Source of the DNA: Acidiferrobacter thiooxydans
GTDB taxonomy: Bacteria; Pseudomonadota; Gammaproteobacteria; Acidiferrobacterales; Acidiferrobacteraceae
Assembly (NCBI RefSeq): GCF_003333315.1
Contig: NZ_PSYR01000001.1
Span: forward strand, 956,501 to 1,020,500
DNA: 64,000 nucleotides
Direction: 5' to 3'
Shown here: positions 38,290 through 43,664 of the stretch, piece by piece
Layout of the letters: every line of letters starts with the position of its first letter
Position numbering within the stretch: the first letter of the stretch is position 1
Made by a program: the position numbers and the translations under genes
Notes under the pieces: generated by a model
Told to the model about the DNA's origin: nothing
What the model saw: only the letters and a program-made list of their open reading frames with translations
Databases searched by the model: none

Positions 38290-38643
38290 TTACTGGTTCA
38301 GTAGACTTTCGGCCGGGATATGGAATTGCCGGTTCAAGGCCTGAATCATCCGTATCGTCAACGGGCGTTTGCGAGCCAGGACCTCGTAGACGCGGTTTTT
38401 GCGTCCAATGGCAGGGACTAAGTCATCAACGGTGAGGCCCTGCTGCTCCATGCGAAATTTGATGGCCTCCACGGCATCGGGCCAATCCAGGGGATAGTGT
38501 TTGCGCTCGTACGCCTCGACCAGGGTCACCAGCACATCGAGGCGGTCGCCGGCTTCGGACCCCGGCTCCGCGGTCATGAGCGTTTCGATTTCGTGTAACG
38601 TCTTGCGATAGTCCGCGTCGGTCTTGATAGGGTGAATGTCCAT
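38290..38643 (-). CDS. higA: HigA-type antitoxin
   Basis: A 117-residue protein with an N-terminal toxin-binding part (HPIKTDADYRKTLHEIETLM) and a C-terminal helix-turn-helix (MEQQGLTVDDLVPAIGRKNRVYEVLARKRPLTIRMIQALNRQFHIPAE). This is the HigA2-like antitoxin found 3' of HigB toxins. It starts 9 bases after the toxin gene. Both genes of this pair are open. Confidence 0.85.
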   Translation of the reverse strand: MDIHPIKTDADYRKTLHEIETLMTAEPGSEAGDRLDVLVTLVEAYERKHYPLDWPDAVEAIKFRMEQQGLTVDDLVPAIGRKNRVYEVLARKRPLTIRMIQALNRQFHIPAESLLNQ

Positions 38644-38652
38644 GAGGTGCCC

Positions 38653-38955
38653 TCAGATAGTCTGTGCGTCGATGCGGTCGTACTCCTCATGCGTGCCCAG
38701 GAAGCGGACGTAGAGCACTCGGTAGGGAGTATTTATCCACACGACCAGCCGGTATTTGTTGCCGCCGATGTTGAAGACGACCCGTCCGTCTTTCAGGATG
38801 CTGGCGTTGCCGAATTGCCGTTTCACGTCGTCGGGTGTCGACCAGTCGGCCTTGACCGCTTCGCGATACCACGCCATCGTCGGCCCCTCGGCGTCCCGGT
38901 ATTCCGGCCTGCCGGTCCAGAACGCTTTGAGGGTCGACACGGCGATGACGCGCAT
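38653..38955 (-). CDS. higB: HigB-type mRNA interferase toxin
   Basis: A 100-residue RelE-fold toxin: MRVIAVSTLKAFWTGRPEY...WYREAVKADWSTPDDVKRQFGNASILKDGRVVFNIGGNKYRLVVWINTPYRVLYVRFLGTHEEYDRID, all HigB landmarks in order. ATG 38955 is preferred to the upstream GTG/ATG at 38985. Frame intact, transcribed before higA. Confidence 0.88.
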   Translation of the reverse strand: MRVIAVSTLKAFWTGRPEYRDAEGPTMAWYREAVKADWSTPDDVKRQFGNASILKDGRVVFNIGGNKYRLVVWINTPYRVLYVRFLGTHEEYDRIDAQTI

Positions 38956-39079
38956 GAGGGCACCGTAGTCCCATATTGGGACCATGTCAAGTCGGCCGTG
39001 GCGAGCCTGCAGTTTTTACGCGGGGAGGCTCTCTGGTACTACCCCAGCCTGCGGTCTTTACGCGCCTCGCGGAAACCGC

Positions 39080-39473: not shown

Positions 39474-40328
39474 TCAAGCGGCTAGATCCCAGGACGCTGT
39501 GGTGTAAGCCTCCCACGGTGTCCGTCGATCCAGTGCTTGATGAGGCCTCTCATGATTATAGAAATGGAAGTATTTTGCAAGAGAGGCCCGTGCTTCAGGT
39601 ATCGATGCATAGGCCTTGAGATACACCTCCTCATACTTGACAGAGCGCCACAACCGCTCGACGAACACGTTGTCACGCCAGCAGCCTTTGCCGTCCATGC
39701 TGATGTCGATCGTGTGGGCCTTCAGGACGTCTGTGAAGGCCTCGGAGGTGAATTGCGCCCCTTGGTCGGTGTTGAAGATCTGCGGGGCCCCATAGAGCTC
39801 CAGGGCCTCCTCCAGGGCCTCGACACAGGAGTCGGCCTCCAGGGTGGTGGCCAGCCGCCAGGAGAGCACCGCACGCGTGGCCCAGTCCATGATGGCGACG
39901 AGATAGCAAAAGCCCCGGGCCATGGGGATGTAGGTCACGTCCGCACACCAGACCTGGTTGGGCCGGGTGATGGTCATGCCTCGCAAAAGATAGGGATAAA
40001 TGCGATGACCCGGACCCGGGGCGCTGGTCTTGCGCCTGGGGTACAGGGTCTTGATCCCCATGACCTGCATGAGCCGCTGGATGCGCTTGCGGTTTACGAA
40101 CACGCCGTCGCGCTCGAGCCGGTCCCGCAGGCGCCGCGAGCCCAGGAAGGGATGCTGGAGGTGGAGGGCATCGAGCCGCTTCATGAGCGCCAGATCGTCC
40201 TCGGAGACCACAGGTCTCCCCTGGTAATACACGCTCGAGCGGGGCACGCCAAGCCACGCGCATTGGCGTGCGATCGGCACCACCGGATTCTCGCGCTCGA
40301 CCCGTTGGAGTCTCTCAGCCGTGGTCAT
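39474..40328 (-). CDS. IS3-B transposase OrfB
   Basis: 284-residue DDE transposase, same as at 59794-60648. OrfA/OrfB are intact, but the left inverted repeat is separated by the inserted element. Confidence 0.93.
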   Translation of the reverse strand: MTTAERLQRVERENPVVPIARQCAWLGVPRSSVYYQGRPVVSEDDLALMKRLDALHLQHPFLGSRRLRDRLERDGVFVNRKRIQRLMQVMGIKTLYPRRKTSAPGPGHRIYPYLLRGMTITRPNQVWCADVTYIPMARGFCYLVAIMDWATRAVLSWRLATTLEADSCVEALEEALELYGAPQIFNTDQGAQFTSEAFTDVLKAHTIDISMDGKGCWRDNVFVERLWRSVKYEEVYLKAYASIPEARASLAKYFHFYNHERPHQALDRRTPWEAYTTASWDLAA

Positions 40329-40600
40329 TTGCCGAGCACTCGTGCGAAAAAATCGTTCTGGACCGTAAGCTCTCCAATCTTGGCCAGCAAGGCCTCGCGA
40401 TCGCTGGTGGGTGTCGTCCCCGTGGGCTTGCCGAAAATGCTCGCCGCCTGGTCGATCAACTGCCGGCGCCACTGGGTCACCTGGTTCGGGTGGACCTGGT
40501 GTTTGGCTGCGATCTCATGGATAGTCTTCTCCCCGGCCAGGGCCTCAAGGGCCACCTTGGCCTTGAACTGCGGGGCGTGATTGCGTCGTGTCTTGCTCAT
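40325..40600 (-). CDS. IS3-B OrfA
   Basis: 91-residue OrfA identical in pattern to that of copy 1, overlapping OrfB by four bases. Confidence 0.9.
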   Translation of the reverse strand: MSKTRRNHAPQFKAKVALEALAGEKTIHEIAAKHQVHPNQVTQWRRQLIDQAASIFGKPTGTTPTSDREALLAKIGELTVQNDFFARVLGK

Positions 40601-40818
40601 AGGATTTCTGCTCCTTGTTGCGTTACTGTAAGGGCAGATAATCCTTTCTATTGCACACATCTTTGGCGATTTTCTCTGATTGTTTGACGCGCCTAACGAA
40701 AGTGCTGGACACACGCGCCGAGATTGCGTAAGGTGGCGGTTGTCGCGGCGTGCGACAAGGACAGGCGGACGGCGTGCAAAAGTCGAGGCGTTGTGGGGAT
40801 CCGGATGTGCGGGCGATC

Positions 40819-42261
40819 ATGGAGGCCGGCACAGAGTCGGTCGAGTGGGTGAGACAAGAGTTTGCCCGCGCCGACCTCTCCGATAAACGCCTGGATCGTC
40901 GCTTGGTGAAAACTGCGGAATATCTCGCCCAATCTCCCGGCTCGCCGATCAATGAAGCGTGCGGCAATTGGGCCAGTACGCAAGCGGCGTATCGGCTGTT
41001 CAATAATGCCAAGGCGAGCGCGGCGGGGATCCTCAAACCCCATTGGGAAGCGACGGCCGCGCGCATGGCCGGCTGCGGGGGTGCGGTGCTGGTGATGCAG
41101 GACACGGTCTTCTTCTCCTACGGCCGGCACGTCAGGACTCGGGGCCTCGGACCGATTGGCAAGAGCAACGCCGCGCATGACCGGGGCCTCATCATGCATA
41201 ACGCACTGGCCTTCACCACCTCGGGCGTGCCGCTCGGGATCGTGAGCCAAAGCATCTGGGCGCGCGGGGAGATCCCGGAGGAAGACTATCAGGAGAAGAT
41301 CGAGCGCCTGCAGGTCACGGCGATCGAGGAAAAAGAGAGCGCGAAATGGCTTATTGCGCTCAAAGAGACGGTCGAGCGGGCGCCCGCGGGCGTGCCGGTC
41401 GTCACCGTGGCCGACCGCGAATCGGACTTCTTCGAGTTCTTGACACGCGCCCAGGACCTGCAGGCGCACTATCTCATCCGCGCGCGCACCGACCGCAAGC
41501 TCGTGCCCGAAGACAGCGCGGGCTGCACGCGGATGCTCGAGGCGTTGAGCGATGCCCCGGCATGGGGGAGCATGACGATTGAGGTTCCTGGCAACGGCAG
41601 TCGTAAGGCGCGCACGGCGGCGATCGAGGTGCGCACAGCCGAGGTCACGATCCAGCCCCCACCGCGCCGTGGGGCGGCCCAGACGTCCGGCTCCAGCGAG
41701 CCTGTGACCGTCACCCTGATCGGGGCGACCGAGTCGTCCCCGCCGGCCGGGGTGGAGCCGATCAGCTGGGTGTTGCTCACAAATCTCATCGTCAAAGACT
41801 TCGCGTCCGCCACCGAGAAGGTGCGGTGGTATGGGCGGCGCTGGGGCATCGAGATCTGGCATAAGGTGCTCAAATCCGGCTGCAAGGTCGAGGACTGCCT
41901 GCTCGAGGAGGCCTTGCGCCTCAAGCGCTATCTGACGCTTTTCAGCATCATCGGCGTGCGCCTGATGCATGTGACCTACCTGGCCCGCGCGCACCCGGAT
42001 CGGCCGGCCACCGAGGTGTTCTCCGAGGAGGAGGTCGAAGCGCTGCATATCCGCGTCACGCGGGCATTGCCCCCCGCAGGTCCTGCCCCGACGCTGCGCG
42101 ACATGGTGCGCATGCTGGGCCGGCTCGGCGGCCACTTGGGCCGCAAGGGGGATGGCGAACCCGGCGTCACCGTGCTCTGGCGCGGCTGGACGAGTCTTTA
42201 CGAGACGGTCGAGACACTGCGTGCCCATAAACATGTCCTCAGCCCGCGCGACTCGAGCTGA
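40819..42261 (+). CDS. Tn5/IS50-type (IS4 family) transposase
   Basis: 480 residues from MEAGTESVEWVRQEF; the frame is open back to 40750. N-terminal DNA-binding region ADLSDKRLDRRLVKTAEYLAQSPGSPINEACGNWASTQAAYRLFNN, catalytic Asp in VMQDTVFFSY, second Asp in VTVADRESDFFEF, and the Y-R-E-K signature in YGRRWGIEIWHKVLKSGCKVED. These match Tn5 transposase. The gene is complete. Confidence 0.92.
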   Translation: MEAGTESVEWVRQEFARADLSDKRLDRRLVKTAEYLAQSPGSPINEACGNWASTQAAYRLFNNAKASAAGILKPHWEATAARMAGCGGAVLVMQDTVFFSYGRHVRTRGLGPIGKSNAAHDRGLIMHNALAFTTSGVPLGIVSQSIWARGEIPEEDYQEKIERLQVTAIEEKESAKWLIALKETVERAPAGVPVVTVADRESDFFEFLTRAQDLQAHYLIRARTDRKLVPEDSAGCTRMLEALSDAPAWGSMTIEVPGNGSRKARTAAIEVRTAEVTIQPPPRRGAAQTSGSSEPVTVTLIGATESSPPAGVEPISWVLLTNLIVKDFASATEKVRWYGRRWGIEIWHKVLKSGCKVEDCLLEEALRLKRYLTLFSIIGVRLMHVTYLARAHPDRPATEVFSEEEVEALHIRVTRALPPAGPAPTLRDMVRMLGRLGGHLGRKGDGEPGVTVLWRGWTSLYETVETLRAHKHVLSPRDSS

Positions 42262-42264
42262 ACG

Positions 42265-43119
42265 ATGCGCTACTGCGGACGAGAGTTTACACCAGCCGAG
42301 ATCGCGCTGATCCGCGAGTGGCTCACGACCCCCCAGATGAACCGTGCTCGTTTATCCCGGGAAGTCTGTGAGAGGCTCGGATGGCGCCGGGAAAATGGCG
42401 CTCTGAAGGATATGAGCTGTCGCGTGGCCCTCAACCGCATGCACGCCGATGGGCTGATCACACTGCCCCCGCCGCGCAACCCCAAGCCCGTCACCTACCG
42501 GTCCTATCCGGACATCGAACAGGCGGTTTGCGAACCCGCCGTCATCCCGGCCATCGATCTCGCTACGCTCACCATTGATCCGGTCCTCGGCAGAGCCGAA
42601 TCGCGGCTGTGGAACGCCTATATCGAACGCCACCACTACCTCGGGCATACCCTCATGCCCGGGGCGCAACTGCGCTACTTCGTACGCGCCCAAGGCCAGA
42701 TCGTCGCGGCCCTGGGCTTCGGGGCCAGCGCCTGGAAGGTCAAGCCCCGCGATCAGGCCATCGGCTGGACGGTCGATCAGCGGCAACGCAATCTGCACCT
42801 GATCGTCAACAATGCCCGTTTCCTTATTCTGCCGTGGATCCATTGCCCAAACTTGGCCTCACGGATCCTGGCCTTGGTCAGCCGCCGACTCCCCGACGAC
42901 TGGCACGCCCGCTACAGCTATCGCCCGGTTCTGCTCGAAACCTTCGTCGAGAAGCCGCGCTTTACCGGTACCTGCTACAAGGCGGCCAACTGGCAAAACC
43001 TTGGGGATACTCAAGGGCGCGGTAAGCTCGACGTCTTGCATCGCCACGCAAAGCCCGTCAAAAGTATCTGGATCTATCCGCTCGTGCGGGACTTTCGCCG
43101 GCATCTCTGCAACGCATAA
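42265..43119 (+). CDS. DruA-family protein (DUF4338), transposon passenger
   Basis: A 284-residue protein with a complete DUF4338 domain: SRLWNAYIERHHYLGHTLMPGAQLRYFV, ALGFGASAWKVKPRDQAIGW, NLHLIVNNARFLILPW, NLASRILALVSRRLPDDW, VLLETFVEKPRFTGTCYKAANW, TQGRGKLD and the C-terminal KSIWIYPLVRDFRRHL. DUF4338 is the domain of DruA in the Druantia anti-phage system, where its function is unknown; none of the other Druantia genes (large DruE helicase etc.) is present. It begins 3 bases after the transposase stop, within the inverted repeats, so it moves with the element. It may help transposition or protect the host. Confidence 0.88.
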   Translation: MRYCGREFTPAEIALIREWLTTPQMNRARLSREVCERLGWRRENGALKDMSCRVALNRMHADGLITLPPPRNPKPVTYRSYPDIEQAVCEPAVIPAIDLATLTIDPVLGRAESRLWNAYIERHHYLGHTLMPGAQLRYFVRAQGQIVAALGFGASAWKVKPRDQAIGWTVDQRQRNLHLIVNNARFLILPWIHCPNLASRILALVSRRLPDDWHARYSYRPVLLETFVEKPRFTGTCYKAANWQNLGDTQGRGKLDVLHRHAKPVKSIWIYPLVRDFRRHLCNA

Positions 43120-43340
43120 GACAGGCCATTCGATTACCTATCGATATTCATCGATGCCTCATGCTTTGTTGACAGAAAGATGTGTGTAATAGAAAGCAGA
43201 TAATCACCTAAGCTAGTGTCCAAGAATTGGGGTCCATCTCTGAAGGCAATGAACCCGTGGCACGAAACGTGTCCCCCGATACTCAGTGGAGCGGAGCGTG
43301 ATTTCGTGGGGAGGATGATGAGCTAAGTGCTGGATTATAT

Positions 43341-43385: not shown

Positions 43386-43480
43386 TGCGCTAAGCTCTTG
43401 AGCGCCCGCAACAAAATCCCACAAAAACAATGAATTACCAGTCCGATAATTCCGTCCCTGAGGCAGTTTTTCGAGTGAAA

Positions 43481-43557
43481 GTGCGCCCAAAGTGCGCCCA
43501 AAGTGCGCCCAAAGTGCGCCCAAAGTGCGCCCAAAGTGCGCCCAAAGTGCGCCCAAA
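43481..43557 (+). repeat. Seven tandem copies of GTGCGCCCAAA
   Basis: Seven perfect 11-bp units in a row, ending in GTGGGCGCG. The unit length is not a multiple of three, so it is not a coding repeat. Located between the att site and the AlpA-like genes; could be iteron-like binding sites. Confidence 0.85.
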
Positions 43558-43664
43558 GTGGGCGCGGTTAGGCGGCGTGGCTGGCGCCCGCGGGCGGGAG
43601 CCACATCCGTGTGAATTTCACCCGGGGCCTAAGAACACCACAGCCAAAACCGTGGTGAACCAGT

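Follow-up and report, generated by a model that had tools for sequence, protein, structure and literature searches.

A DruA-family gene within a Tn5-type insertion sequence of Acidiferrobacter thiooxydans and its recurrent linkage to transposases of several IS families

Why should a compact Tn5-type transposon carry, as its only passenger, a gene of the DUF4338/DruA family? This question is raised by an element in a 64,000-nucleotide stretch of the Acidiferrobacter thiooxydans genome (hereafter the window), for which an earlier note, made from the sequence alone, had suggested either that DruA-type proteins act in transposition or that the transposon spreads a defence gene. The features of the element are as follows:

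40635..40643, no strand: left copy of the target-site duplication (TSD), CAGATAATC, matching the right copy exactly
40644..40664, + strand: left terminal inverted repeat (TIR), CTTTCTATTGCACACATCTTT; the identical sequence delimits all copies
40750..42261, + strand: IS4-family, Tn5/IS50-type transposase, based on Pfam, NCBIfam NF033590 and catalytic motif alignment
41101-41103 (D), 41413-41415 (D) and 41851-41853 (E), + strand: transposase DDE residues, from catalytic motif alignment
42265..43119, + strand: DruA/DUF4338-type accessory gene, 284 aa (PF14236, 153 bits), intact in 7 of 8 copies
42265..42540, + strand: N-terminal helix-turn-helix (HTH)-like domain of DruA, a weak fold assignment from the structure model
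42556..43113, + strand: predicted GNAT-fold core of DruA, from predicted structure and profile alignment
42634-42639 (H124-Y125), 42859-42861 (S199) and from 42976-42978 (Y238) to W243, + strand: Mom-type signature in the DruA core
43176..43196, - strand: right TIR, CTTTCTATTACACACATCTTT, read on the - strand
43197..43205, no strand: right copy of the TSD, CAGATAATC, pairing with the left copy

Analysis of the boundaries agreed with what had been claimed: the two 21-bp TIRs are identical at 20 of 21 positions, and the element is flanked by a perfect 9-bp duplication. Only two genes lie between the ends, and both are intact by Pfam domains and catalytic residues, as also proposed. The transposase starts with GTG at 40750 or with an in-frame ATG at 40819 and its reading frame ends at 42261; after a gap of 3 nt, the DruA gene extends from the ATG at 42265 to the TAA at 43119. 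The transposase contains the Pfam domains Tnp_DNA_bind, DDE_Tnp_1 and Dimer_Tnp_Tn5, scored 367.8 bits against NF033590 (Tn5-type IS4), and had complete DDE and YREK catalytic residues in the motif alignment. With these domains and residues, the TIRs and a target duplication of about 9 bp, the element is assigned by its sequence to the IS50 group of the IS4 family. The DruA protein scored 153.2 bits against PF14236 (cut-off 27) and belongs to the DUF4338/DruA family. Thus, the element resembles IS50/Tn5 in its DNA-binding, DDE and Tn5 dimerisation domains, YREK motif and duplication length, whereas it differs in TIR sequence and in the DruA-type gene inside its ends, 3 nt downstream of the transposase. 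IS50 itself is not known to code for anything beyond the transposase and its inhibitor.

Scanning of the genome (3.25 Mb, 4 contigs) for TIR pairs revealed 9 occurrences of this pair, each enclosing both genes. The earlier note had asked whether other elements with these ends always contain DUF4338, and here they did (9 of 9), with the gene inside the ends in every copy. One pair, located where contig C2 begins (L049), differed from the C1 copy by 0 mismatches and 13 gap bases over 3284 bp, and was therefore considered a redundant low-quality duplicate, which leaves 8 distinct sites. Four of the 8 copies are identical across 2553 bp and one more differs at a single base; in two others a single nucleotide is deleted, once in DruA and once in the transposase (sequencing error or mutation), and one is interrupted by an istAB-type (IS21-like) insertion. 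The TSDs at the 8 sites are 8-10 bp long, being exact 9-bp duplications at four sites and 10-bp duplications at two. For two oppositely oriented copies (L050 and L052), the TSD halves (8 and 9 bp) were exchanged, indicating a large chromosomal inversion via recombination between both copies. In the empty sites, an A at -4 from the duplication was observed in 14 of 20 half-sites, with roughly TTAGG ahead of the duplicated bases. The element is active or recently active. As separate observations, the first part of contig C2 duplicates a C1 region and differs from it by indels only, an assembly redundancy, and at C2:37267-38655 a decayed relative of the element has a DruA gene that is still open (67%) beside a broken transposase.

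The same genome contains a second DruA-bearing IS unrelated to the Tn5 type. Four near-identical 2.4-kb elements (L057:1515-3939, and L058-L060) have the ends CAGCAATTCTAAATGT and 9-bp TSDs, and code for a 450-aa DDE transposase of unassigned family with an adjoining DruA inside the ends, 43% identical to the window DruA. Five copies of a relative of this IS were found in the congener G001.

DruA genes were also linked to transposases in other genomes, where elements of the window type with the same TIRs and gene order were present in other MAGs. Among 80 GTDB loci with DruA relatives, which were collected using IS-type queries and so are not an unbiased census, 71 had a transposase HMM match directly beside DruA: IS66 TnpC upstream of DruA in 49, a Tn5-type transposase upstream in 9, DruA between IS66 TnpB and TnpC in 6, DruA upstream of TnpC in 5, and DruA upstream of a Tn5-type transposase in 2. 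Pfam calls agreed with these HMM neighbours, and IS1634 and further DDE cases are among the remaining loci. An independent scan for PF14236 across 299 genomes of the phylum identified 19 loci beyond those of this genome, comprising 5 long DruA proteins and 14 IS-type loci; six of the latter had an adjoining or fused transposase (two each of ISKra4, Tn5-type and ISAs1), and the others were fragments or had no recognised neighbour. The NCBIfam names of the partner transposases were IS4, IS66, ISAs1, IS1634 and ISKra4. DruA lies within readable ends in four types, namely Tn5-type, IS66 (GTAA ends, 8-bp TSD), ISAs1 (10-bp TSD) and the second IS described above (9-bp TSD); for IS1634 and ISKra4 the linkage consists of adjacency only. 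Like other IS elements with passenger or accessory genes (IS66 TnpA/TnpB, transporter IS), the window element is compact and has an extra gene inside its ends, but DruA differs from such passengers in that one accessory family recurs over unrelated IS families and is also fused to transposases. A more general slot for accessory genes was considered from the Rhodothermus marinus plasmid pRMAR01, in which a GIY-YIG gene follows a Tn5-type transposase by 3 nt; this was rejected because the IS ends at 2772 of L337, just past the transposase, so that the GIY-YIG gene lies outside it.

Fusions provided the closest form of linkage. In seven G001 loci, DruA is in one frame with the N-terminal part of an ISAs1 transposase, and in all copies checked a -1 shift at the A7 run after this first half connects it to the second, and the joined frame encodes about 606 residues and has only one stop, at its end. 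One 558-aa DruA-ISAs1 protein is continuous without any frameshift, and the N-terminal part of WP_216644545.1, a public plasmid protein annotated as an ISAs1 family transposase, also matches DruA. In addition, we found one fusion of DruA with a Tn5-type transposase (672 aa) and one of IS66 TnpC with DruA (808 aa). The ISAs1 fusions are without the N-terminal HTH-like part of DruA but retain the GNAT core residues. Single fusions could be chance read-throughs; all of them together are hard to explain in this way. As a side observation, ISAs1-type elements at L278:2666-4595 and in L265, L266 and L275-L277 encode a transposase with DruA as its N-terminal domain and may use programmed -1 frameshifting at CCCAAAAAAAG.

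We then considered the history of the pair. Between the window and its relatives in the Tn5-type group, dN/dS was 0.13-0.17 for DruA and 0.11-0.20 for the transposase; DruA is under purifying selection as strict as that on the transposase (dN/dS about 0.15). DruA and transposase distances are correlated, with r=0.67 for IS66 (n=48) and r=0.99 for the Tn5 type (n=7). In the transposase tree, the group with DruA downstream forms one clade (support 1.0), and forms with DruA upstream or fused are placed elsewhere, among transposases without DruA, which implies that the association arose more than once. Close relatives of the transposase without DUF4338 would have spoken against a role in transposition, but in the subgroup with at least 62% identity DruA directly follows every reasonably intact copy. 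More distant Tn5-type IS (at most 41% identity) are mostly without DruA, among them the relatives at 33-41% identity, and Tn5-type transposition in general therefore does not depend on it. Of the two suggestions of the earlier note, the first, a role of DruA-type proteins in transposition, is well supported by at least five named IS families plus one unassigned (same operon or fused), purifying selection and co-divergence.

What the protein might do was approached through its predicted structure. The AlphaFold model of DruA (53 sequences, pLDDT 91) has an HTH-like N-terminus and a GNAT core, and DUF4338 has been described as a GNAT domain in DndF (PMC10853773). The top match in the VIA structure comparison was Mom of phage Mu (8bv8, S124A mutant; Z 14.8, 164 residues, 3.5 A, 15% identity), the next-best match being at Z 13.0 and numerous acetyltransferases of proteins or small molecules scoring Z 12-13. 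Comparison of DruA with a profile of 12 Mom-family proteins by hhalign gave an E-value of 2.1e-10 over 169 columns and paired H124-Y125 with H48-Y49 of Mom, S199 with S124, and Y238-x-A240-x-N242 with Y149-x-A151-x-N153, at a sequence identity of about 15-17%. These signature residues are conserved across DruA proteins of the IS types with few exceptions: P replaces Y125 in the second IS of this genome and in the Tn5-type fusion, and single changes at A240 or N242 occur in two other proteins (one ISAs1-type sequence was left out of the residue alignment for frame problems). Model and alignment together show a predicted GNAT fold homologous to Mu Mom with the signature residues kept. DruA has in common with Mom the GNAT core and the H-Y, N..S and Y-x-A-x-N motifs; it differs in being IS-borne, in its fusions to IS transposases, in the extra N-terminal HTH-like domain and in falling below the Pfam Mom cut-off, and its base-modifying activity is putative. 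No match to Pfam Mom (PF25680) was obtained for the window DruA, the best relative reaching 19.6 bits (cut-off 27.1), and no meaningful hit came from searching PDB sequences with DruA alignment profiles. The N-terminus was modelled as three helices with weak matches only (best Z 4.9, Foldseek E 0.9). The Mom recognition motif in the TIRs was also considered, but the other IS types are without it, and it was dropped.

DruA is co-mobilised with the element, maintained by selection, and recurrently linked in operons or fused with DDE transposases of several IS families. This linkage shows that DruA functions together with the element, not at which step. We infer base modification by DruA as well as its site and purpose: the chances seem to us about even that the second gene codes for a DUF4338/DruA-family enzyme dedicated to assisting transposition, which modifies bases at or near the DNA of the transposase. 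In the Mom reaction, an acyl-type group is attached to N6 of adenine (PMC7824862), and DruA might similarly use a CoA donor to place such a group on a DNA base, which by analogy would be adenine. The modified DNA would be held by or close to the transposase, i.e. the transposon ends, the target or the freshly moved copy. IS50 and IS10 are regulated by host Dam adenine methylation, and the mark would regulate or protect transposition in a similar manner, except that it would be encoded by the element. Free-standing DruA may reach DNA via its N-terminal HTH-like domain, and the ISAs1 form without this part would be tethered by its transposase fusion. We prefer modification of transposase-bound DNA because the fusions place the enzyme there, because in the ISAs1 fusions the HTH-like part alone has been lost, and because adenine methylation is known to regulate IS50 and IS10. 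On the other hand, GNATs mostly act on proteins or small molecules, DruA-Mom identity is low and the Pfam Mom model missed DruA, which counts against base modification.

Several other explanations had to be weighed. First, DruA might be an accessory protein acyltransferase whose substrate is the transposase or a protein of the host instead of DNA; it might, for instance, tune transposase activity. The GNAT fold, with many protein and small-molecule acetyltransferases among its structural matches, would fit such a role, and a transposase fusion would supply the substrate in cis; nevertheless, we consider it unlikely, since in both structure and profile the nearest match modifies DNA bases and has signature residues in common with DruA, and a shared protein substrate site is less plausible when one core serves structurally different transposase families. 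Second, DruA might, like Mom in Mu, mark DNA broadly and thereby enable DNA with the element to survive restriction on entering a new host. Mom homology and the spread of the family across many phyla in MAGs are consistent with such anti-restriction or self-protection, but an IS cannot by itself move between cells and the transposase fusions point to transposition sites. Moreover, relatives are rare in sequenced plasmids (2 records) and none was found in phage records at the sensitivity used; this explanation appears rather improbable. A search of viral contigs with the transposase gave no match. Third, a DNA-binding protein without enzymatic activity, which helps to choose targets or recognise ends, would be suggested by the N-terminal HTH-like part and by the site preference for A at -4, whereas the catalytic-type GNAT residues are among the most conserved and are kept in ISAs1 fusions that have no such N-terminal part, making a helper of this kind quite improbable.

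Spread of a Druantia-type phage-defence gene, the second suggestion of the earlier note, did not hold up and is very improbable. PF14236 bears the DruA name and some DUF4338 proteins do belong to defence systems, but the PADLOC DruA model matched the window protein with only 17.2 bits over 80 residues, compared with 267-592 bits for long DruA proteins, and no DruE-type helicase domain (MZB/DUF1998, PF09369) was detected in the whole genome. Judged by these matches, the window DruA is not part of the Druantia defence system. The long DruA proteins compared here are five PADLOC DruA model matches and not verified Druantia type I loci, two of them lying with a HerA-type ATPase instead; they have W-S at the H-Y position and G at R185 and S199, and are without the A-N-W part. 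Long defence-type DUF4338 proteins share PF14236, a GNAT-like core and equivalents of G133, R162, G247, T249 and G251 with the window DruA, but are about 400-1280 aa long and have no IS genes directly attached (5 examined). Many IS families, in addition, carry DruA without defence partners. Finally, passive hitchhiking of DruA in a small number of related elements, as the DruA-free Tn5-type relatives at 33-41% identity might suggest, is largely refuted by the dN/dS of about 0.15, equal to that of the transposase, and by repeated independent association with several IS families, and is hardly credible.

Extending the preferred reading of DruA as a base-modifying transposition accessory, we suggest more tentatively that several DDE IS families may carry or fuse a Mom-like base-marking enzyme for self-encoded epigenetic control of transposition, and that Druantia-type DruA may be a later diverged branch of a family that lives chiefly in transposons. 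Our search of the literature for links of DruA or DUF4338 with IS or transposases revealed no prior report, although older Mom-family work (Iyer, Aravind and others) may mention one; within this literature, neither the DruA accessory gene nor its repeated occurrence among IS families seems to have been described. The DruA-type gene carried by these elements seems to be a widespread accessory to transposition and not a gene for phage defence. DUF4338 proteins are annotated as "Druantia anti-phage protein DruA", and our results suggest that many such annotations refer to transposon accessory genes and that counts will be inflated in defence inventories that rely solely on PF14236. Should the Mom-like activity be real, insertion sequences would contain a built-in DNA-modifying enzyme. 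The candidate catalytic residues and natural transposase fusions make this activity directly testable, and the likeness to Mom offers a testable idea of the original activity of the DruA core.

Some minor observations were also made. In two unrelated genomes (L231:4911-9072 and L232:5622-9887), a long DruA is followed by a protein of 404-412 aa and a HerA-type ATPase (589-614 aa), a candidate DruA-HerA system with no DruE seen nearby; the L232 locus adjoins TniQ and other Tn7/Tn5053-type transposition genes. In the window, a gene for a HigB-type toxin next to a probable antitoxin gene (38290-38985, - strand) and an IS3-type transposase orfB directly left of the element (39474-40472, - strand) were found. 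To the right of the element lie short tandem repeats of GTGCGCCCAAA-like units (about 43460-43560) and a gene for a protein with a CAP12/Pycsar-type TIR domain (PF10137; 44638-45420, + strand), which is likely a defence effector.
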